A stretch of DNA of 64,000 nucleotides from Gemmatimonadota bacterium (GTDB lineage Bacteria > Gemmatimonadota > Gemmatimonadetes > Longimicrobiales > Gaopeijiaceae): positions 1 through 64,000 of the forward strand of contig JAQBXY010000008.1 in NCBI GenBank assembly GCA_027623325.1, written 5' to 3'. A program made the translations under genes and the position numbers. Below the pieces are notes generated by a model. That model did no database searches and was not told the DNA's origin. It saw only the letters and a program-made list of their open reading frames with translations. Positions 37,154 through 48,669 of this stretch are shown here, one piece after another (within the stretch, counting starts at the first letter, position 1; the number at the start of each line of letters is the position of its first letter).

Positions 37154-37461
37154 CGAGAGAGTGGGCTGAATCACCCCCCAGCGAACAGGGGAACTTTCCT
37201 TACACCTAAAAGGCTTTCGCATTAGGGAGTATGTACCAATATTCCTGTGCGCCCGTTTGTATAGCGGGCGACTGGCACCAGACGCATGGAACCAGCCAGG
37301 GTGCCTTGCATCAGGGGGTGTGGAATGCGTGACCGGGGTGGATGGTTTGTGGGAGTTCCTGCCTGGCCAATTGGCCGACTCGACACGAAGCCCCGTTGTG
37401 CGCGTAGCCCATGGGGGGCTGCGCCGAATCCTCTTCTCACAGACGTGAGGGGGTCAGACGT
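37154..37461 (+). promoter_or_regulatory. Long structured leader/promoter region of the susCD-like pair
   Basis: No gene is seen in these 308 bases. The first part is locally AT-rich (TTCCTTACACCTAAAAGG) and may hold the promoter. Two hairpins follow: CGCCCG / CGGGCG at 37250-37270 and GGCACC / GGTGCC at 37274-37305. A purine-rich GAGGGGG ribosome binding site lies just before the ATG at 37462. A leader of up to about 200 bases could be a control element, but no known riboswitch was recognised. Confidence 0.4.
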
Positions 37462-40400
37462 ATGAACATGAGTTTTGTTCGAACCGTCGCCGCCCGCTTC
37501 GCCGTGTTCTCCGCGCTGAGCTTCGCTCTCGCGGTGACCCCGGCGGAGTCGCAGGCACAGGCGAGAGGTACCATACGCGGCCAAGTAGTGGACGCGGTAA
37601 CGATGCGCCCGCTATCCGGTGCGCAAGTGTCCGTTCTCGGCACGGGAGCGGGAGCGCTGGCCAACCAGAGCGGCCAGTTCCTCATTTTGAATGTCACGAC
37701 CGGGAGTCAGACGGTGCGGGTCGACCTCCTCGGCTACGGAACGTCCGAGCAGCAGGTGACGGTCTCCGCGCAGCAGGTCGCTCAGGTCGAGTTCCGCTTG
37801 AGTCAGTCGGCGCTCGAACTCGACGCGATTGTCGTGACGGGCACGCCTGGACAGACTCAGCTCCGGGCCATCGGCAACTCGGTCTCCAAGTTCGAGGCTG
37901 GTGGGGTCACCGAGGCGGTTCCGGTAGGGTCCGTACAGGAGCTCCTGCAGGGCCGTGCGCCGGGCCTCACGCTTCTCGCGGACGGTGGTGCAGCGGGTGA
38001 CGGATCGCAGATCCGCCTCCGTGGTGCTGGTTCGCTCGAGGGTCGTTCCGAGCCCGTCATTTACGTAGATGGTGTCCGGGTCAGCGGCGGCACCGCGAGT
38101 TTTGCCAGCCAGTGCGGGTCGGTGACGCACTGCACGGACGCGCTGGACTTCCTCAACCCGAACGACATCGAGTCGGTCGAGATCATCAAAGGCCCTGCGG
38201 CGTCGACGCTCTACGGCGCTGAAGCGGCATCCGGCGTGATTCAGATCATCACGAAGAAGGGTCGTTCCGGTCAGCAGGGCATTTCTTGGACCGCGGGCTT
38301 TGACGGTGGCCAGTCCGATTGGGCCGTCCAGCGTCCCATCACGTACTGGAACTGCACGGCGGCCAACGTCACGAGCACCGCGTTTCCGGGTTGCACGACC
38401 GAGGGGCTGCTATCCTTCGATCCACTGACTGCCCACCCCAATGCGCTGCGGGGCAATGGTGCGAACACGGCGCTTTACCCCGATGTCGTTCCCAGCGACC
38501 CGAACGGTGCCCGGACTTTTGGCCGGAACCTGTCCGCGCGTGGCGGCGGTGAACTGTTCAACTTCTTCATCTCGGCCGAGCAGAACGACGAAGAGGGCGT
38601 CTACGAGAACAACTTCTCGAACCGCACCGGCGGCCGCGCGAACTTCGGCTTCACTCCCAGCCAGGAGCTGAGCTTCAACGTCAACATGGGCTACGCACGT
38701 AACCATGTGCGCATGCCGCTGTCCAACAATTCGTCCAACTCCATCCTTCGCAATGGAATGCGTGGTCGGGCGGGTGCCGTGTACCAGTTCGAGCCGGGCT
38801 ACCGTAACTACGGTCCGACGCTCGCCAACGAGTGGGACGTCCAGACCCGGACGGAGCGCTACACGCTCGGTACGACGATCAACTACAACCCGACGTCGTG
38901 GTTCCAGAATCGACTGGTGCTCGGGCTGGATCAGACCAACCGTCGTGAGACGGATTACACCGAGCCGGGCTCACTGAGCGCGTCGGTCTCGTCCGCACCC
39001 CGTAGCATCGGCTACATCGCTTCGTGGACGCCAACCATCCACAACTGGACGGTGGACTATTCCGGCACGGTCACCACCGACATCAACGAGAGTTACAATT
39101 CGGCATTCAGCGCGGGTATGCAGCTCAACGCGTCGAAGTCGGAGGCGTTCCGCGCGATCGGTGAGGGCCTCATCAGTGGCAACCTGAACCTGGTCGGTTC
39201 GGCCGCCACGACCCGCGCCGACCAGCTGTTCTCGGAGCAGAACTCCCTGGGCTTCTACGTCCAGGAAGTGGTCGGCTACAACAATCGCCTGTTCGCCACG
39301 GCGGCCGTCCGCGTCGATGACAACTCGGCGTTCGGTAGGGACTTCTCGTTGGTCGTCTACCCGAAGGCCCAGCTGTCCTACGTCATCAGTGACGAGGACT
39401 TCTTCAACTTCAATTCGATTGAGCAGCTGAAGTTGCGGGCCGCGTGGGGCCAGGCGGGTAATCCGCCGAACCCGTTCTCAGCCGATCGGACGTATGCGCC
39501 GAACGTGGCGTACGACGATGGCCAGATCGTGAACATCCTGCGGCCCGAGTCGTACGGAAATCCGGACCTCAAGGCCGAGACCGGTTCCGAGATCGAACTC
39601 GGACTCGATGCGTCTCTCTTCGCCGGCCGAATGGGAGTCGACTTCACGTGGTACAACCAGAGCACGAAGGACGCCCTGATCGGCGTTCCCGATCCTCCGT
39701 CGAGCGGCTTCAGCGGAGAGCACCTTGCGAATGTGGGGGAGATCAGCAATACGGGGTTCGAGATTCTGCTCTCGGGTACGCCCATCTACACCCGCAAGCT
39801 TCAGTGGGACGCGACCCTTGCTTTCACCACGAGCAAGAATGAACTCGTTACCTGGGGCGAGGCTCCGCTGACGGAGATCACCTTCGGCGAGTTTGCGAAG
39901 ACTCAAAAGCACGTTCCGGGCTACCCGATGGGTGGCTTCTGGGGCCGAGATGTGGAGCGGGATGCCGGGGGCGCCCCGATCCTTACCGCGGGTGGTGCTG
40001 CTACGGTTGAGGATTACGAGTACGTCGGCCCGTCCGCACCGACGCGAGAGATCGGTTTCACCAACTCGATTACGCTGTTCGACAACTTCCGGATCTTCTC
40101 GAATCTCGACTACAAGGGTGGCCACTATCAGTGGTGCGCCATCTGCTCGATTCGGAGCCGGATCGATCTGAACACGTTCACGATCAACCGTCCGGATGCC
40201 GATCCGACGGATGTCGCCGTGGTTCGGAGCCTCCAGACGAGGCGCTGGATCAAGGAGGCGGACTTCTTGAAGCTCCGCGAGATTTCCTTGAGCTACCAGG
40301 TGCCTGCCTCGGCGATCGAGCGGCTCGGCGTGAGCAGCGCGAGCGTCACGATCTCCGGCCGCAATCTGTGGATGTGGACGAAGTACAAGTTCGACGAGGA

Positions 40401-40533
40401 CGGAGTCGGCCTCGCTTCGGCCGATCCCGAGGTGAACTTCAGCTCCACGGCCGGCGGCGGCTTCAATCGCTCCGACTATGCGTCCATTCCGATGCTGCGG
40501 ACGTTCTCCGCAGCCGTCCGGTTCTCGTTCTAA
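37462..40533 (+). CDS. SusC/RagA-type TonB-dependent outer membrane receptor
   Basis: 1023 residues. A signal peptide ends near SQAQA (about residue 34). A carboxypeptidase-regulatory-like domain follows at about 35-120 (GTIRGQVVDAVTMRPLSGAQ, quoted in part as IRGQVVDAVTMRPL), then a TonB-box-like DAIVVTGT, the plug with PVIYVDGVRV and STLYGAEAASGVIQIITKKG, and a large barrel ending in the canonical terminal aromatic (AAVRFSF). It would import an oligomer across the outer membrane together with the SusD-like lipoprotein that begins 18 bases downstream. No glycan-degrading genes are adjacent; neighbouring secreted peptidases may point to peptide uptake, which is only an inference. The ATG at 37462 is supported by an upstream GAGGGGG. 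Confidence 0.97.
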   Translation: MNMSFVRTVAARFAVFSALSFALAVTPAESQAQARGTIRGQVVDAVTMRPLSGAQVSVLGTGAGALANQSGQFLILNVTTGSQTVRVDLLGYGTSEQQVTVSAQQVAQVEFRLSQSALELDAIVVTGTPGQTQLRAIGNSVSKFEAGGVTEAVPVGSVQELLQGRAPGLTLLADGGAAGDGSQIRLRGAGSLEGRSEPVIYVDGVRVSGGTASFASQCGSVTHCTDALDFLNPNDIESVEIIKGPAASTLYGAEAASGVIQIITKKGRSGQQGISWTAGFDGGQSDWAVQRPITYWNCTAANVTSTAFPGCTTEGLLSFDPLTAHPNALRGNGANTALYPDVVPSDPNGARTFGRNLSARGGGELFNFFISAEQNDEEGVYENNFSNRTGGRANFGFTPSQELSFNVNMGYARNHVRMPLSNNSSNSILRNGMRGRAGAVYQFEPGYRNYGPTLANEWDVQTRTERYTLGTTINYNPTSWFQNRLVLGLDQTNRRETDYTEPGSLSASVSSAPRSIGYIASWTPTIHNWTVDYSGTVTTDINESYNSAFSAGMQLNASKSEAFRAIGEGLISGNLNLVGSAATTRADQLFSEQNSLGFYVQEVVGYNNRLFATAAVRVDDNSAFGRDFSLVVYPKAQLSYVISDEDFFNFNSIEQLKLRAAWGQAGNPPNPFSADRTYAPNVAYDDGQIVNILRPESYGNPDLKAETGSEIELGLDASLFAGRMGVDFTWYNQSTKDALIGVPDPPSSGFSGEHLANVGEISNTGFEILLSGTPIYTRKLQWDATLAFTTSKNELVTWGEAPLTEITFGEFAKTQKHVPGYPMGGFWGRDVERDAGGAPILTAGGAATVEDYEYVGPSAPTREIGFTNSITLFDNFRIFSNLDYKGGHYQWCAICSIRSRIDLNTFTINRPDADPTDVAVVRSLQTRRWIKEADFLKLREISLSYQVPASAIERLGVSSASVTISGRNLWMWTKYKFDEDGVGLASADPEVNFSSTAGGGFNRSDYASIPMLRTFSAAVRFSF

Positions 40534-40543: not shown

Positions 40544-40551
40544 ATATGACA

Positions 40552-41889
40552 ATGATCAGGACAATGTCTTCGCGGTCGGTACGAGCGACCGTGATAGGAC
40601 TGGCTTTGGCGGGCCTCGGGGCCTGCTCTTTCAGTGACATTTTGGAAGTGCAAAACCCCGATGAGCTGAACGAAGATCTTCTCCAGGACGACGGGCTCAT
40701 CGATGTGCTGCTTTCGTCCGTGAAGGGTGACTTCGACGAGGCGTTCGATGACCCCTTCATCTGGCGTGGCAGCATGTTCACCGATGAGTCGCTCACCGGG
40801 ATCAACTGGGAGCAGACCGCGCGTCTGAACCAGCGGATCGTGCAGTTCGATGAGGGTGACGCCGACTTGATGTTCACGGAGATCAGCGCGGCACTCCAAC
40901 AGGCGGACTCGATCTCAGGTCGGCTTCGCACGCTGCTGGATACGCCGGGAACGGACGCGCGTTTTGCCCGAACGTTGGCGTACGCGGGTTACTCTTACAT
41001 TCTCATGGCCGACGCGATGTGTGAGGCTACGGTCGCAGTAGGGGATGTCATCCACCAGCCGCTGGCGCTCTATCAGTTCGCGGTGGACCGGTTCAATGAG
41101 GCACTCACAGTGGCGACGGCGGCGAACGATGCCGACCTCGTCAATCTGGCCCGTGTTGGCCTCACGAGAGCACACTTGAACCTGGGCAACATGGCCCAGG
41201 TCATCAGTATCGCTGATCAGGTGACGGCCAACTTCAAGTACGAGGCGGAGTACTCGGACCAGAATCCGTCCGTGTACAACGTGCTGCAGGCTCGTGTGAC
41301 CAGTGCGAACCACTCGCTCGGCGTGCACCCGAAGTTCGTCGCGGGTGGTGTCTTCGGGACACAGGACCTATCACCGGTCATGACGGATCCACGGGTTCAG
41401 CATTTTGCGCGCTGGCGTCTCGGGCATAACCAGCTCACGCCGCTGTACACGCTGAACGCGAGCTTGATGATGAGCAACTACAACGGTCAGACTCGGGCCG
41501 CCGGTGGCACGCCCGCCCTCATCGAGCGCGGTTCGAGTATCGCGTTCGCGTCGCAACTCGAGGCGCTTCACAATCGGTACGAAGCCCTCGGCGATGACCC
41601 GGCGACGTTGGCGTTCGTCAACGCACGGCGGGCGGTCGGGAATCAGGCGCCCGTCGCACTGACGGGCCAGCCCTTGATCGACGAGTTGCGGAACCAGCGC
41701 GGCAAGGACTTGTTCCTGGCCGGCTACCGTCTCGGCGACCTGCGCCGTTGGCTGCGTGGTGGGCAGGACCTGTTCCCGTCGGGTCAACACGTCAACGCGC
41801 AGTGGGGGGACTACGGCACCGCGACGTGCTTCCCGCTGCCGTTGGAGGAGTACGAGGGCAACCCCAACATCTCGCTGCCGGGCAGCTGA
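40552..41889 (+). CDS. SusD/RagB-type outer membrane lipoprotein
   Basis: About 445 residues. The signal peptide ends in the lipobox LAGLGAC, so the protein is lipid-anchored at the outer surface. The SusD hallmark helices are visible: ARTLAYAGYSYILMADAM, LYQFAVDRFNEALTVA and ARVGLTRAHLNLGNMAQVI are TPR-like pairs, and LRNQRGKDLFLAGYRLGDLRRW near the end (quoted as ELRNQRGKDLFLAGYR) is the conserved late motif. It forms the lid of the SusC-like transporter. The substrate is unknown. A strong terminator follows. Confidence 0.95.
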   Translation: MIRTMSSRSVRATVIGLALAGLGACSFSDILEVQNPDELNEDLLQDDGLIDVLLSSVKGDFDEAFDDPFIWRGSMFTDESLTGINWEQTARLNQRIVQFDEGDADLMFTEISAALQQADSISGRLRTLLDTPGTDARFARTLAYAGYSYILMADAMCEATVAVGDVIHQPLALYQFAVDRFNEALTVATAANDADLVNLARVGLTRAHLNLGNMAQVISIADQVTANFKYEAEYSDQNPSVYNVLQARVTSANHSLGVHPKFVAGGVFGTQDLSPVMTDPRVQHFARWRLGHNQLTPLYTLNASLMMSNYNGQTRAAGGTPALIERGSSIAFASQLEALHNRYEALGDDPATLAFVNARRAVGNQAPVALTGQPLIDELRNQRGKDLFLAGYRLGDLRRWLRGGQDLFPSGQHVNAQWGDYGTATCFPLPLEEYEGNPNISLPGS

Positions 41890-41952
41890 TGTAGGGACTT
41901 GGTGGGGGTTCGCGGATTCAGGCAGGGTCCGTGAGCCCCTCAAGAGTTGGTC

Positions 41953-41992
41953 GGCGGGGGCGGTGCGCAAGCGCCGCACCCGCCTTCTCTTT
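41953..41992 (+). terminator. Terminator with GNRA loop after the susCD-like pair
   Basis: A two-part stem, GGCGGG / CCCGCC then GCGGTGC / GCGCCGC with a G/A mismatch between, is capped by a GCAA tetraloop and followed by TTCTCTTT. It also lies before the end of the convergent di-haem gene. Confidence 0.75.
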
Positions 41993-42004
41993 CTGGGGGT
42001 TGCT

Positions 42005-43213
42005 CTACAAGGTGTTGAGAAAACGGAGGATGGTCTCCTGCTGGAGGCGATCCAACGCCGCGAACCGATCCCGTGCGCCCTGGGCCTCACCGCCGTGCAG
42101 GAGGATGGCATCCATCACTCGGCTGGCTCGACCGTCATGGAGGTAGAACTGCCGAAAACGGATTCCCATCAGCGGCTCGGTTCGGTACTCGGTCAGCTCG
42201 GCGCCCGGTGCGCATGTACCGGTGAAGGCTTCTCCCATGTCGTGGAGAAGGAGGTCGGAGTACAACGCGATCGATTGTTCGGACAGGGCGCGACTCTCGT
42301 GGCGGCCGGCTCTCAACGCCGGGACATGGCACGAGGCGCATCCGAGCGAGGTGAAGCGCTCGCGACCCTGCGTGATCTCTGCCTCTTCACGGTCGGCAGG
42401 GGCGGGTGGCGCAAGGAAACGCATGAAATCGACAACGAGACTCAGGGCCTCGGCGTCGATCTCGGGGTCGGCCGTGAGGTCACTCCCCGTTGGGACGAGG
42501 GGGAGCCCACCCGCCTGTCCGTCGTTGGGATGGGGCGGCGTGGTAAGGCCCATCTCCAAGCGGAAGGCCCCGGCGGTGAAGTCCGCGAGCGTCGCCACGT
42601 CCGCTTTGCGCCCAAAGCGGGCGGGCCGTCCTGTCGCGTCGCTCCCGAGGCGGCCCGAGATTCCGTCGTCATCGAGGTCATCCGGGTCGGCGAGCGCTGC
42701 GAGGGACTCCTGCGGAATGGCGTCGACGAGGCCGAGCCCGAACACGAAGGGGATCGTGAAGCGAGCAGTGTGCGTCGCGCCCTCGACCGAACGTGCGGGA
42801 AGGCCTCCTAGAGTACGCGTGTGTGGGGTGACCTGGATGCGGACATTTTCGCCCCCCTGGGGTACGAGAAGATCACAGCGCCCGTCGTCCGAAAAGCGCG
42901 TCGCTTTGGTCACGGAGGTCTCCCCGGTTCCTCCGTCGGCAGGGAACGTGTGACAGGCGTTGCATGCATTTTCGTTGAAGCGAGGCCCGAGCCCCTCATC
43001 CGGAGAGAAGGCGTGCCTGAACAATATTTTGCCTTCTTCGAAGCGACGAAGCTCTTGGGCTGTGAGAGAGGGCAGGGGTTCGCCGACATCGGCGAATACC
43101 GGTGACGTACGTTGTTCCGGGGTAGTGCAGCCGGCCCAGGACAGGACCACGATGGGTGCGAGGGTGAGGGCCCGCACCCCGAACCGAATGAACCAGCGAG
43201 GATTAGAGATCAT
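42005..43213 (-). CDS. Di-haem oxidoreductase (putative peroxidase-like lipoprotein)
   Basis: 402 residues. The N-terminus has a lipoprotein signal ending at WAGC (Cys29). Two c-type haem sites are seen: CNACH at residues 84-88 and CASCH near residue 300. The family (COG3488, thiol/di-haem oxidoreductase) is related to cytochrome c peroxidases and is periplasmic. LGPRFNENACNACH and HTARFTIPFVFGLGLVDAIP (quoted as FGLGLVDAIP) are typical. The start ATG overlaps the start codon of the divergent lipoprotein gene through a shared CATG; no strong ribosome binding site lies upstream, so a downstream start is possible. Confidence 0.9.
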   Translation of the reverse strand: MISNPRWFIRFGVRALTLAPIVVLSWAGCTTPEQRTSPVFADVGEPLPSLTAQELRRFEEGKILFRHAFSPDEGLGPRFNENACNACHTFPADGGTGETSVTKATRFSDDGRCDLLVPQGGENVRIQVTPHTRTLGGLPARSVEGATHTARFTIPFVFGLGLVDAIPQESLAALADPDDLDDDGISGRLGSDATGRPARFGRKADVATLADFTAGAFRLEMGLTTPPHPNDGQAGGLPLVPTGSDLTADPEIDAEALSLVVDFMRFLAPPAPADREEAEITQGRERFTSLGCASCHVPALRAGRHESRALSEQSIALYSDLLLHDMGEAFTGTCAPGAELTEYRTEPLMGIRFRQFYLHDGRASRVMDAILLHGGEAQGARDRFAALDRLQQETILRFLNTL

Positions 43214-43652
43214 GACGAGAGATCGAGTCAGGGGTGGGACTTTCGGACTTCTTCTGATAGGACTCCTCAGCGCTGCCGCGTGTTCGTCCGGAACGCAGCC
43301 TGACGTTAAGCCGACGTCCGCGAGAGTGCGCGTGGAGGGGACGGCGCCCGTGGCGCTTCAGTTGGTGGTATCCACCGATTTCTACGAGATCCTGAACGAT
43401 GTCACCTTGGAGCCCCAACAGGTGGTGGAACAGGCTGACACGTTCTTTATCGATCTTCCCTACGATGCCACCATCCCGCTCACGAGCCTCGGTAGCGTCA
43501 TCGTAGCGCTGACCAATCATGACGCGGTGGCCGCCCAGGTCCGCCTGCGCGTGGAGCTCGACAGCGGGCAACAACCGTACGACCAGGGTGCCACCATGTC
43601 ACTCGGTGGAACGTTGCGCTACGTCTTCTCGTTCGTCCAGATCGTATTCTGA
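43212..43652 (+). CDS. Small lipoprotein, unknown function
   Basis: 146 residues. The signal peptide ends in the lipobox LSAAAC. The mature part is predicted all-beta, with strands such as LQLVVSTDFYEIL, TFFIDLPYD and VRLRVELDSG, suggesting a small immunoglobulin-like or C2-like sandwich. I recognise no family. GAGG about ten bases upstream supports the ATG at 43212, which shares CATG with the start of the di-haem gene on the other strand. The divergent pair may be co-regulated, and the lipoprotein might be a partner of the cytochrome, but this is inference. Confidence 0.75.
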   Translation: MTRDRVRGGTFGLLLIGLLSAAACSSGTQPDVKPTSARVRVEGTAPVALQLVVSTDFYEILNDVTLEPQQVVEQADTFFIDLPYDATIPLTSLGSVIVALTNHDAVAAQVRLRVELDSGQQPYDQGATMSLGGTLRYVFSFVQIVF

Positions 43653-43685
43653 TCCGTGCGGGTCACCCTACTCGTGCAGAGGTCC

Positions 43686-44933
43686 CTAGCGGAGCTTCCT
43701 GAAGAGTCGATCGGCGACGGTCACGGCGAGGGGCACTCCCAGAACAAGGAAGGCGTGGCCGATGTTGTTCACGAGTTGGACATCCCCGCCCGCCGTGGAC
43801 ATCGAAAACGCGTAACCCGGCAAAAGCATCATCCCGGCTCCGACGACGGCCGGGATGATGCGTCCGATCGAACTGTCGGTGCCCCCACCCAATCGAACGC
43901 CCCAAGCGCTCCCCAAGGCCGGCATGGCAAAGGCAGCTGCCCCGGCTGCAAAATTGAGTCCGCCCGCACACTCGGTCTGGATCTGTTCGGCCTGGATGGA
44001 GATGCACTCACGGGCTAGCGTGAGACCTAGTGCGAGGCCGAGTGCGTTTCCGACCACTGCGCCCACCACGGCCCGGCCCGTGCTGTGACCCGCTGGATCT
44101 TGCTCCCAGTCGAAGGTGAGTCGTTCGCGACCCGGGAATGACGAGATCGAACCGTCCCGGTCTGATCCGACCAGCCCCGGTCGCGCGGTTTCAATCAGAA
44201 TCACCCCGTAGAGCGATCCGGTCCCGTAGCGGGCGCCGGCCGATCCGGGCGGAATGACCTCGATGCGATGAAGGTTCGACAAGCCGATCGAGCCGTAGAG
44301 GAAGTTCGGATCGGCGACCTGCACACCATCGACCAGGACCATCGGGTGCGCACAGGCTCGGGCGTTCACGATGGAGATCGTGGCCGCCGCCCTGAATTCC
44401 AAGCACACGTCCTGGCCCGCGAATTGGTTCGACTGGCGCATGCGGATGCCGGGCACGGTCTGACGAATCAGATCGCCCACGTGGCGGCTCGTGCCCAAGG
44501 CCCGCTCGATTTCCTCGCGGGTTACCTCCCAGATCCCGGCGCCTGTCGTGCGCTGCCGTCGTTCGAGCGTCGATTCTCCTTCGACGACGAGCGCATCCAG
44601 CTCGATCGCTTGCGGCGCTAAGCGCACTTCGAGCGTCAGCTGTACGTCCTCGGCGACGGTGATCGAGTGCTCGAACGTCCCGTAGGCAAGGTGGTCTACG
44701 TAGAGCGTCCAGACGCCGGGGGGCACTCCGCGGATGATGAAGTTGCCTTCGTCGTCGGTTGCCGCGGAGACGTCTGTGCCGAGGACGTGCAAAATCACAT
44801 CGGGAATTCCGGCACGGGTCTCGACGTCGATCACGACGCCGTTCAGGTCCAAGGAGGACTGCGCGGCCGCGTCGTCGACCGCCATCGCCGTGCCGGACAG
44901 GGCCAGGATCGCCAACGCGGTTCGAACGACCAT
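43686..44933 (-). CDS. Barrel-less TonB plug protein with C-terminal membrane domain (paralogue 2)
   Basis: 415 residues from the ATG at 44933, which gives a signal peptide ending near AAAQS; the frame upstream is not protein-like. Order: carboxypeptidase-regulatory-like domain at about 28-110 (LNGVVIDVETRAGIPDVILH, quoted as VVIDVETRAGIP), a TonB plug-like domain to about 270 (VGDLIRQTVPGIRMRQ, PMVLVDGVQVAD, LHRIEVIPPGSAGARYG, YGVILIETAR) with a conserved Cys pair (VCLEF, RACAHP), then FDWEQDPAGHS and three or four hydrophobic helices with a second Cys pair (RECIS, QTECAG) and the ending ADRLFRKLR. There is no beta barrel. It is a clear paralogue of the next gene upstream. Function unknown. 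Confidence 0.8.
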   Translation of the reverse strand: MVVRTALAILALSGTAMAVDDAAAQSSLDLNGVVIDVETRAGIPDVILHVLGTDVSAATDDEGNFIIRGVPPGVWTLYVDHLAYGTFEHSITVAEDVQLTLEVRLAPQAIELDALVVEGESTLERRQRTTGAGIWEVTREEIERALGTSRHVGDLIRQTVPGIRMRQSNQFAGQDVCLEFRAAATISIVNARACAHPMVLVDGVQVADPNFLYGSIGLSNLHRIEVIPPGSAGARYGTGSLYGVILIETARPGLVGSDRDGSISSFPGRERLTFDWEQDPAGHSTGRAVVGAVVGNALGLALGLTLARECISIQAEQIQTECAGGLNFAAGAAAFAMPALGSAWGVRLGGGTDSSIGRIIPAVVGAGMMLLPGYAFSMSTAGGDVQLVNNIGHAFLVLGVPLAVTVADRLFRKLR

Positions 44934-45060
44934 CCCCAACGACCGATTAGGACCCAATTCACAGCCTCCCTGGCGACTCTGGGCATCTCGTCTATACAAT
45001 ACGCTGAAGCCGCTGTGGTGTGTCCGAGCCCCCGTCCCGGAGACTCGGGTGTGGTGCTTC

Positions 45061-46344
45061 CTATCGCATTCCCCGGAACATCCTGTCGGCCAGGGAGGTG
45101 AGCAGAGGAGTCCCGACCACAAGGAATACCTTCCCGATCGTGTTCATCGTCTGCACACCCTCGCCCACCGTCGAAAGCGAGAAGATATAGCCCGGCAGAA
45201 CGCCCATGGCCGCCCCCACCATGGCTGGCACGAGCTTCCCCGTGGAGAGCTGAGTCCTCCCGCCAAAATGTGCTCCCATCGCGCTTCCGAGGGCGGGCAG
45301 GGCGATCGCCGCGGCACTGACTCCGGCGACACCGGCGTTCCCGCACGAAAACGCGATGTCGAGCGTCCGATCCTCGATGAATACGCATTGCCTCCCGACC
45401 GACACCCCCGCGGTCAAGCCGATGGCGTTTCCGATGACGGCCCCCACGAAGGTCCGCGCGAAGGGATGCCCTGCGGGGTCCTGATCCCAGTCGAATGAGC
45501 TACGGGCCCGAGAGACGAAGGGCTGACCCGCTCCTGGGACGGGGTTTCCGACTCCCACATCCACCGGCGCCGGTCGAGCCGCCATGAAGCGGGTCTCGAT
45601 CAGAACCACGCCATTCGGCGCCGAACCAAACCGAGCGCCAGCCTCTGCGGAGGGAATCACCTGAATCCGTCTAATGTCGGCGAGTGCGCTCAGGTCGTAG
45701 ATCGAGGTGGGGTCCTGCGCCTGGATCCCATCGAGGAAGATGCGGGGATGCAGGCAGCTGAAATCCTCTTCGTCGCCGCCGACGACGAGCGAAGTGCCCG
45801 ACCGCGCTGAGGAGCCCCGAAATTCGAGGCAAAGCCCGAATCCAACGAAGCCGGCAGCTTCTCGCGACCGGAGGCCCGGCGCGGCGCGCTGAATCAGCTC
45901 TCCCAGACTACGCACTGAGCCGATCAGTCGTGCGATCTCCTCCGCTTCGACGACCTGGCCCAGGGTGCGAGCAGGATCCGAACTCGGTGGGGGCATGGGT
46001 GCGGCTTCGGGCTCCGCGGTCAAATTGATCTCGACCTCTGCGAAACCGCCCGGCTCGATCTCCATGGCGTACGTCCGCGCCCCGTATCCTTCGAATTCGA
46101 CTTCGAGCGTCCACGTCCCTGCGGGCACGTCCCTCAGCACGAAGCGGCCGCTCGCGTCGGTCGATACTTGAGTGTCCGATCCCTGGACGCTGACCGTCAC
46201 TCCAGCAAGGGTGGCGCCGCTTTCAAAATCTCGAACGACACCGGAGACTCGTTCGGCCTGGAATTGCCGCGCGGAAGCGCTCCCCGGTACGGCGAGAAGG
46301 AGGATGACTGTGGCGATTCGCCTGAAGGCCAGCGCGCGATTCAA
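45061..46344 (-). CDS. Barrel-less TonB plug protein with C-terminal membrane domain (paralogue 1)
   Basis: 427 residues. Signal peptide to about residue 26 (SASARQ). The architecture is the same as paralogue 2: regulatory-like domain (SGVVRDFESGATLAGVTV), plug-like domain (LGELIQRAAPGLRSRE, PRIFLDGIQAQDP, IRRIQVIPSAEAGARFG, GVVLIETRF), a Cys pair (LCLEF, FSCLHP), the linker FDWDQDPAGHP, then helices with GAVIGNAIGLTAGV, a second Cys pair (RQCVF, FSCGN), PALGSAMGAHFGG and an ADRMFRGMR end. An acidic, Gly-rich insertion (VVGGDEEDF) separates the first Cys pair. The gap to paralogue 2 is 127 bases. Known TonB receptors place the plug inside a barrel, so this must work differently. Confidence 0.8.
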   Translation of the reverse strand: MNRALAFRRIATVILLLAVPGSASARQFQAERVSGVVRDFESGATLAGVTVSVQGSDTQVSTDASGRFVLRDVPAGTWTLEVEFEGYGARTYAMEIEPGGFAEVEINLTAEPEAAPMPPPSSDPARTLGQVVEAEEIARLIGSVRSLGELIQRAAPGLRSREAAGFVGFGLCLEFRGSSARSGTSLVVGGDEEDFSCLHPRIFLDGIQAQDPTSIYDLSALADIRRIQVIPSAEAGARFGSAPNGVVLIETRFMAARPAPVDVGVGNPVPGAGQPFVSRARSSFDWDQDPAGHPFARTFVGAVIGNAIGLTAGVSVGRQCVFIEDRTLDIAFSCGNAGVAGVSAAAIALPALGSAMGAHFGGRTQLSTGKLVPAMVGAAMGVLPGYIFSLSTVGEGVQTMNTIGKVFLVVGTPLLTSLADRMFRGMR

Positions 46345-46490
46345 GACTTCATCCGCGTCCGCCCAGCGGGGCGGGAAGTGACCGGGGCGTGGATCAATAC
46401 CTGCGGCGGGCCGCGGGCAGGGGAACTATAGACTATACGACCCCGTGCGAAGCATTTGCGTTGGCGCGTCCGGGGACGTAGGCCCGCGCC

Positions 46491-47183
46491 TTACCGAATA
46501 ACCCGCGTGGGGACCGAACGGCTCACTCGTGTACCGTCGCCCACCTGGCCACTCTGGTTCAGGCCCCAGCAATAGAGGCCGCCGTCGATCGCCGTCGCGC
46601 ATGTCAGAGCGCCGCCAGCATGGATGTTCGAGAAGGTCATTTCGCTCGTAACGGCCACCGCCTGCGCGCGATTCTGCGTCGTCCCATCGCCGAGCTGACC
46701 CTGCAGGTTTTGCCCCCAGCAATAGGCCCGCCCGCCGGCGACCAAGGCGCAGGTGTGCACCGCCCCTGCGGCCAGGTGCGTCGGAGGACCGGGCAACCCT
46801 TCGACTTCCACGGGTTGAGACCGATCGTCGGCCGATCCGTCGCCTAACTGACCGAACGAATTGCCGCCCCAGCACAGGACCTGTTCCTGGCTAATGCCAC
46901 ACGTATGCGCGCTGCCGGCCACGAGCGTCTCGACAGCGCCGCGGACCAGTGTCGGGACGAGCCGATCCAAGCGACTCCCGTCTCCGAGCTGGCCTTGGCT
47001 GTTCAGTCCCCAGCAGAAGGCGTTCCCGCTAGCAGTGAGCCCGCACGTGTGGTTCCAGCCGGCGGTCAGCCGACGAAACGCGAGGCCTCCGCCGACGGTG
47101 CGTGGGACGCACGACTGGGTCAGCAACACGCAGAGGAGCGCGATTCCTGCGAGTCTCCGGGTCCCGACCCGCTGTGCACTCAT
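46491..47183 (-). CDS. RCC1-repeat lipoprotein
   Basis: 230 residues. The lipobox is LTQSC. Four to five RCC1-type repeats of about 50 residues follow, each with a variant of HTCGL...YCWG-x-N-x2-GQLGDG (for example AFCWGLNSQGQLGDG and AYCWGQNLQGQLGDG). In these secreted forms each repeat has two Cys residues that probably form a disulfide. A full seven-bladed propeller normally needs more repeats, so this one is short and may dimerise or be incomplete. The stop of the upstream TPR gene is two bases before its start. Confidence 0.88.
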   Translation of the reverse strand: MSAQRVGTRRLAGIALLCVLLTQSCVPRTVGGGLAFRRLTAGWNHTCGLTASGNAFCWGLNSQGQLGDGSRLDRLVPTLVRGAVETLVAGSAHTCGISQEQVLCWGGNSFGQLGDGSADDRSQPVEVEGLPGPPTHLAAGAVHTCALVAGGRAYCWGQNLQGQLGDGTTQNRAQAVAVTSEMTFSNIHAGGALTCATAIDGGLYCWGLNQSGQVGDGTRVSRSVPTRVIR

Positions 47184-47185
47184 GC

Positions 47186-48349
47186 TCAGCGGAACATCAA
47201 CCGGATCAAGTTGACATCGACCTGGCCGCCCCGGGCAGACATCGTCGGCCCCCCGATCCGCGGCCCTGCGTTTCCTTCCTGGTCGGAGATCGTGGCGGTC
47301 TCAGCGCGCCGCCTGCGCGCGCTCAGGAGAGCGTCGATGGCTCCCACTACGGTTACTGCCGCCCCGACGGCTACGCCTTGCCAGAAGTAGGGTCTCTCCG
47401 TCAGCTCGGCTACGATGAGGTCCGATGGGCAGCTCGCGCCGATCGCCACGTCCTGTAGGCATAGAGTGGTGATCTTCTTGAAGAACAGCCCCGCGGCGAG
47501 AGCTCCGCTCGCCGCAGCCAACGTCAGGGTCCCTCTCGCCGGCCGTCCGATGTAGAAGTGCCCCATGCCCGGTACGATCCCGAGGACCGCCGCGCCGCTG
47601 GGACTCGGCGTTGCCACCGAGGCCGCTCCTTCGAGCAATCCGATCCGCTCGGAGACCATGGCCACGATCGGGTCGATCGAACTCGGGGCAAGTGTCAAGT
47701 ATGCCCGATAGTCGTCGAGACTCGCCCGAATGCGGCCCAGATACTCGTACACGAGTGCGCGGTTGTAGAGTGGGGCACCCCAGTCCGGAGCGGTTTCGAT
47801 CGCGATCGTGAACGCGGCCGCTGCTTCTTCGAAGGCGCTCGAATCCGCCAGGGTAAGCCCCGACACGAATGCATCGCGCGCCTCGGTGGGGATTCGGGTC
47901 CGGACCAGTTCGAACAACGCGTCGAGGCGGCTTTGGACGTCGAAAATCCCGATGGACTCGACTTCCAGATCGAGTGCTCGGCAGAACTCGTCCATGGCGG
48001 GCTCGACCTCGCCCAGGTCTTCGAGCACGCGGGCGCTGCGATAGGCCAGGTCGGCGGAGGTCGGGTCCGACTCCACGGCTCGCCCGAGGAGCACCTGTAC
48101 CCGCTCGAGATCGCCGAGGATCATGGCCTGGTTGGCTTCGGACGCAAGCTGGCCCGCCTGGGCCCTCGCGTCGGGGCCGGGCTCGACGGGCCCGATGGGT
48201 GCCGGACACTCGTAGGGCCGCGACCCAGGGTACTCTCGTTGGAGCGGAAGCTCCTGCCCCGCGAGAGGCGATACGGTCCACGCGAGGGCTGAGAGCAACA
48301 CCCTGCGAAGAAGGCCGGAGCGTCTGTGTTGCACGATCCGAGGGGGCAT
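47186..48349 (-). CDS. TPR protein with C-terminal membrane segments
   Basis: 387 residues from the ATG at 48349 (MPPRIVQHRRSG), followed by a signal sequence ending near LAGQE. TPR units lie at about 50-230, for example AMILGDLERVQVLLGRAVESDP, given in parts as GDLERVQVLLGRAV, and YNRALVYEYLGRIRASLDDY. After a linker comes VPGMGHFYIGRPARGTLTLA, a motif seen in small membrane domains such as DUF5683-type proteins, and then two or three helices with FFKKITTLCLQD and YFWQGVAVGAAV. The C-terminal tail is Arg-rich. It is the first gene of a four-gene run with the RCC1 and plug proteins. Confidence 0.82.
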   Translation of the reverse strand: MPPRIVQHRRSGLLRRVLLSALAWTVSPLAGQELPLQREYPGSRPYECPAPIGPVEPGPDARAQAGQLASEANQAMILGDLERVQVLLGRAVESDPTSADLAYRSARVLEDLGEVEPAMDEFCRALDLEVESIGIFDVQSRLDALFELVRTRIPTEARDAFVSGLTLADSSAFEEAAAAFTIAIETAPDWGAPLYNRALVYEYLGRIRASLDDYRAYLTLAPSSIDPIVAMVSERIGLLEGAASVATPSPSGAAVLGIVPGMGHFYIGRPARGTLTLAAASGALAAGLFFKKITTLCLQDVAIGASCPSDLIVAELTERPYFWQGVAVGAAVTVVGAIDALLSARRRRAETATISDQEGNAGPRIGGPTMSARGGQVDVNLIRLMFR

Positions 48350-48669
48350 TGTTTCTACAGTTAACAAACCGGTCCGCGCATCGTGAAGATGCGAGACCGG
48401 GCAAGGCAAAAGCTGTCTTATGAAAGCTTCAGGGCCACGAGTTGGGCTGTCAAGCAAAGTCTTGGGTCGCTGAAGTGCCAAAAAGCCCAACAAGATAGCG
48501 CCTAACGGCCTGCCACGCTGCCGCGCGGCGGGCTCCGGCCGGTTTCTGGGGAACGATGGTCGGCCGGAAGCGTAGACTGGCTCAGCGGGGCCCGACGCCA
48601 GAGGATGGACGGGACGGGTTCCACGACGATATTGGTCGGCACCCGTGGACCTCCCAGGGATCGAGAGAC
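48350..48669. promoter_or_regulatory. Divergent control region between the TPR gene and lspA
   Basis: No gene was supported in these 320 bases. An inverted repeat TTGGGCT / AGCCCAA lies at 48442-48448 and 48484-48490. On the minus strand a perfect TTGACA occurs inside it, but no matching -10 at 16-18 bases was found. A plus-strand frame from 48556 joins lspA but its residues are not like the family, so it was not used. Confidence 0.35.

Follow-up and report, generated by a model that had tools for sequence, protein, structure and literature searches.

Tandem barrel-less plug proteins of SusC type with a predicted four-helix membrane domain in a Gemmatimonadota bacterium

Two exported plug proteins are encoded beside a SusC-SusD locus

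The window, the 64,000-nucleotide stretch of DNA analysed here, carries a SusC gene with a full barrel (37411..40533, +; TIGR04056, NCBIfam 4.5e-131), which is directly followed by a gene whose sequence and position mark it as SusD-like (40546..41889, +). Beyond these lie a DHOR di-haem oxidoreductase gene (42005..43213, −; Pfam PF06537, 1.4e-44), a gene for a small predicted lipoprotein with no Pfam match (43200..43652, +) and two tandem minus-strand genes, encoding P0001 (copy 1, 415 aa, 43686..44933) and P0002 (copy 2, 427 aa, 45061..46344). P0002 starts with a TTG codon. The listed ORF of P0001 (43686-45122, −) is most likely over-extended, and we prefer the ATG at 44933 because a proper signal peptide (MVVRTALAIL...) begins there.

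Both proteins are predicted to be exported, with a signal peptide followed by an NTE, a plug and a C-terminal domain (C-domain). A sequence-only reading had proposed the order signal peptide, CarboxypepD_reg-like domain and plug-like domain for both, and the ORFs, Pfam and a profile match to the PDB agree on it; the motifs FDW[DE]QDPAGH and ADR[ML]FR that it reported are likewise found in P0001 and P0002 alike. In P0002, the signal peptide covers residues 1-26 (46267..46344, −), and Q26, the first residue of the mature chain, falls in a nearly invariant column. The NTE-type domain spans residues 31-110 (46015..46254, −), as indicated by Pfam (CarboxypepD_reg, 7.1e-17), by the strands of an AF2 model and by Foldseek, which matched it to the TTR-like domain of carboxypeptidase D and to the SusC NTE 9hfj; with the full P0002 model, Foldseek returned mainly NTE-like domains. 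The plug spans residues 131-255 (45580..45954, −) and contains Cys172 and Cys197. It was located with a profile of the barrel-less family, which matched SusC/RagA structures in the PDB over NTE and plug (E = 1e-20). P0001 matches both CarbopepD_reg_2 (1.8e-13) and Plug (7.4e-13) in Pfam, and the Pfam Plug match is absent in P0002.

A predicted four-helix domain takes the place of the barrel

The C-domain covers residues 284-427 of P0002 (45064..45495, −; A2 profile and AF2) and 43689..44120 (−) of the P0001 gene (A2 profile, E = 8.2e-57). In the full AF2 model of P0002, built with 32 homologues, an NTE sandwich and a plug are followed by four helices with a small β hairpin, with a mean pLDDT of 78 and values above 90 for most helix blocks; the isolated C-domain reaches a pLDDT of 88.9 and a pTM of 0.81. 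The predicted helices comprise residues 295-318 (45391..45462, −), 336-361 (45262..45339, −), 371-390 (45175..45234, −) and 397-422 (45079..45156, −), the last ending close to ADRMFR. The hairpin lies between helices 1 and 2 and is flanked by Cys320 and Cys334. The α-helical character that had been read into the C-terminal part is thus borne out by the model, which contains no barrel strands there.

The 22-strand β-barrel of known receptors is also missing by sequence, as the SusC NCBIfam scores of both proteins lie far under the cut-off. A tblastn search with 18 SusC barrels, which recovers the genuine SusC barrel, found nothing in 41890-48500. Neither a predicted barrel nor a lost or frame-shifted one close by was encountered, the two outcomes named beforehand as speaking against a barrel-less protein.

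As modelled, the C-domain is a membrane domain of four helices that is new and lacks relatives in Pfam and the PDB: the last 144 residues match no Pfam family above cut-off, a search against PDB sequences gives nothing below E 0.5, and a Foldseek search of the PDB with its fold gives nothing below E 0.6. SlyB (PF05433) and Gly-zipper_Omp (PF13488) proteins share with it glycine-rich helices of weak hydrophobicity, and PF13488 gives weak, sub-threshold matches in 8 of 33 members (best E 0.008). Unlike SlyB-type lipoproteins, however, the barrel-less family has four helices, a Cys hairpin and a plug, and no lipobox. A further resemblance comes from another family of the same order, in which the G355 protein (L087:7163-7732, +) is a stand-alone, exported, C-domain-like protein sharing the signal peptide, a Cys pair and GAHLGG-T-x2-S-x-G (hhalign probability 95%, E 2e-8); it has neither NTE nor plug, and it is a single example whose hhalign score may be raised by composition bias. 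A multi-spanning permease-like protein of G121, a seeming C-domain carrier (E 4e-6), was rejected as a composition-driven false match.

The pair belongs to a conserved family

The family has more than 33 homologues of about 400-440 aa in about 20 genera, and is therefore not a product of chance. Among 121 searched genomes of one Gemmatimonadota family, the C-domain occurs in 50, representing 20 of 40 genera. G135, from a different family of the same phylum, has a full-length member that simple gene calls missed, and a scan of genome contigs yielded one relative only. In a tree of the NTE-plug region, 33 barrel-less and 20 SusC proteins fall on opposite sides of one branch (100/100), which is long, with the root placed by midpoint. 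P0001 is orthologous to the single-copy member that is widespread in the family; P0002, together with its G036 and G061 orthologues, clusters with the P0001 orthologues (99/99), which indicates that the tandem pair is an old duplication retained in three genera.

The dN/dS values between G000 and G036 are 0.11 and 0.13, approximate figures from a simple Nei-Gojobori calculation with dS above 1, and point to purifying selection; the best-kept parts are the C-domain (82-86% identity) and the plug (82-92%). Being shorter than SusC and missing the barrel, the proteins could be taken for a decaying receptor, that is, a SusC left without its barrel that acquired a chance hydrophobic tail. This reading is already contradicted by the conservation, as the C-domain is conserved, with residues invariant across more than 33 members, selection is purifying and the tandem copies have been retained, and we give it almost no credence.

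The plug gains a cysteine pair and the TonB box is altered

The family shares with the SusC/RagA transporters (TIGR04056; Bt1763, RagA) the signal peptide, the NTE (PF13715), the TonB-box position and the plug fold, and differs from them in the four-helix C-domain in place of the barrel, in an additional invariant Cys pair in the plug and in the TonB box. The conservation of two Cys pairs, first noticed between the two copies, extends through the family: in a 32-row full-length alignment, Cys172/Cys197 and Cys320/Cys334 (P0002 numbering) are invariant, as are, among other residues, G309, G362, G369, P413, D420 and R424. The plug pair is present in 33 of 33 barrel-less members and in none of 20 SusC plugs, and it is a reasonable inference that it forms a disulfide stabilising a plug that has no surrounding barrel. 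The stretch from the DG motif to the next strand is also shorter in the barrel-less proteins than in SusC.

The TonB box of Bt1763 is DEVVVTG (PMC7782687). In an alignment with 20 SusC proteins, that of the SusC at this locus is LDAIVVTG, and the equivalent in P0001 is LDALVVEG, within a TonB-box-like strand IELDALVVEG (44577..44606, −). Most members keep a similar hydrophobic strand at this position, the TG of VVTG being exchanged, in most cases for E followed by A or G (VVEA/VVEG), whereas the P0002 group has lost the strand.

Charge, cysteines and hydrophobicity suggest a possible outer-membrane location

Because of the signal peptide, the NTE and plug should be periplasmic. Four crossings would then place the Cys hairpin and loop 3-4 opposite the plug, with loop 2-3 and the C-terminus sharing the side of the plug. 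With this topology, all 33 members carry a K+R excess of 2 to 10 on the plug side, opposite to what the positive-inside rule predicts for a protein of the inner membrane. The predicted dGapp is above zero for 131 of the 132 helices of the family, whereas about 58% of the segments in polytopic control proteins from the window and neighbouring loci (family members left out) are below zero and each control has at least one clearly negative segment; the dGapp constants are approximate, and family and controls were scored on the same scale. A soluble bundle is disfavoured since helices 2 and 3 are almost uncharged.

These features bear on the earlier suggestion that the proteins use the inner membrane. 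As an inner-membrane adaptor or sensor, the protein would hold its NTE-plug in the periplasm with its helices near TonB-ExbBD and its Cys hairpin in the cytoplasm. Four hydrophobic, almost uncharged helices of 20-26 residues correspond to the form that inner-membrane proteins usually take, neither a lipid anchor nor a barrel was seen, and marginal helices can still enter the inner membrane with help. The charge bias, the positive dGapp values and the cytoplasmic placement of an invariant Cys pair, which could nevertheless have another role there, disfavour this location, and we regard it as rather unlikely.

The reversed charge bias, the placement of the cysteines and the weak helix hydrophobicity together suggest instead, by indirect argument, that the C-domain bundle traverses Sec and then resides in the outer membrane. 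Helical proteins are rare in the outer membrane. Wza and GspD are known to have helical segments in this membrane, where SlyB also forms transmembrane rings around OMPs (PMC13067283). Wza and GspD resemble the proposed C-domain in having transmembrane helices in the outer membrane, yet they are oligomeric export pores, and no sequence relation to them was found.

P0001 orthologues are linked to one SusC-SusD-DHOR set

Across several genera, P0001 orthologues are grouped with one specific set of SusC, SusD, DHOR and small lipoprotein genes. The sequence-only reading had considered that the proteins might interact with the barrel of another receptor. The synteny suggests a likely partner receptor, for which the SusC of the locus is the candidate. 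The SusD in question is present in 20 genomes of nine genera. The C-domain occurs in 18 of these 20, linked to the SusD or on broken contigs, versus 32 of the 101 genomes that do not carry this SusD (Fisher test, p = 1e-6, for related genomes with phylogeny uncorrected). Other subgroups of the family lie near different SusC genes (L079, L081, L086, L094, L114 and L115).

The linkage could mean that the plug inserts into a barrel, either that of the neighbouring SusC or that of a different receptor, and replaces or backs up the plug already there, which would fit the homology of the plug fold and the physical proximity to one SusC. We consider this distinctly improbable: the neighbouring full-length SusC proteins examined have their own plug, tblastn found no plugless barrel in 41890-48500, and, judging by the extra Cys pair, the plug may be adapted to existence outside a barrel. 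It is unlikely, if less so, that the proteins are structural envelope proteins whose NTE-plug is a mere periplasmic β-domain, for example one that binds DHOR, with no role in TonB or receptor function. Such a role would agree with the changed or lost TonB-box-like strand and with the constancy of DHOR and the small lipoprotein as neighbours along with SusCD, and more barrel-less CPRL/plug-like proteins adjoin DHOR. Linkage to SusC and SusD, however, equals that to DHOR in strength, and most members retain a TonB-box-like hydrophobic strand at the expected place.

A possible helical accessory of SusCD

We tentatively favour, at somewhat less than an even chance, a reading in which the proteins are outer-membrane helical accessories of the adjacent SusC-SusD-DHOR system that present a second NTE-plug module. 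The proteins would be built on the N-terminal half of SusC-type receptors, comprising the NTE, a TonB-box-like strand (of the pair, in P0001 only) and the plug, with an added disulfide holding the plug together. The tight, glycine-rich four-helix bundle would pass through Sec without being retained in the inner membrane and insert in the outer membrane, keeping the NTE-plug module periplasmic beside the SusCD barrel and exposing the hairpin and its disulfide to the outside. The second TonB-docking or plug-like module might then help to energise, gate or regulate SusCD. Against this accessory role stand the loss of the TonB-box-like strand in P0002 and the replacement of the TG of VVTG in other members. 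Against it also stand G070 (L106) and G076 (L107), which carry SusC-SusD-DHOR in a single orientation with no C-domain protein detected, and the members distant from any detected SusC in L080, L085, L090 and L095.

Slightly more doubtful is the proposal that these proteins form a new outer-membrane protein class, defined by a four-helix transmembrane bundle with a barrel-less TonB-type NTE-plug and serving as a SusCD accessory. A plug is usually regarded as one part of a barrel receptor. A conserved plug family that is freed from the barrel, mounted on helices and equipped with new invariant cysteines would show that the TonB-facing module is able to work separately. If the helices are in the outer membrane, the family would lengthen the very short list of outer-membrane proteins that are helical, and it would suggest a regulatory or energising partner of SusCD. 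For the NTE of SusCD, no function is known (PMC7782687). Our searches found no literature on barrel-less plug proteins in Gemmatimonadetes and nothing usable on an unfolded isolated plug.

Other proteins at the loci of the family

The loci L106 and L107 offer natural comparisons for the role of an accessory protein. In the window, the higher-coordinate side of the pair carries genes for an RCC1-repeat protein (46491-47183, −; PF00415), probably a lipoprotein, with four repeats and regular cysteines and on the same strand as DHOR, and for a TPR protein (47186-48493, −). Conservation of the pair beside these two genes, which had been raised for checking, did not hold, as relatives lack both at their syntenic loci. 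In the hydrophobic C-terminal part of the TPR protein, hydrophobic segments flank a Cys pair (TLCLQDVAIGASC), a layout that resembles the C-domain in design.

In Leptospira, a DHOR-type/RCC1 gene pair is induced by peroxide (PMC7567364), and in Bacteroides, DHOR-type "thiol oxidoreductases" occur in iron-starvation loci (PMC10434189). Given these contexts of DHOR-type genes, an iron or redox substrate for the locus may be considered as a lead, not a result.

Three tandem exported proteins adjoin DHOR in L083 (4107-6807, +). They have a CarboxypepD_reg-like domain, no helices, and an end that is plug-like but degenerate and contains a Cys pair; similar copies appear as partial matches in L078 and L109. 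PD40 propeller proteins, two of the three with a sortilin/BNR part, adjoin other members of the family (L080:9113-12763, −; L095:10428-14144, −; L079:4008-6614, −) and represent a second recurrent neighbourhood. Additionally, two exported proteins lie side by side next to a third paralogue in L085 (5359-6774, −); they contain histidine-rich motifs and terminate in an EF-hand-like DxDGDGR, and a relative is found at L090:6132-6806.
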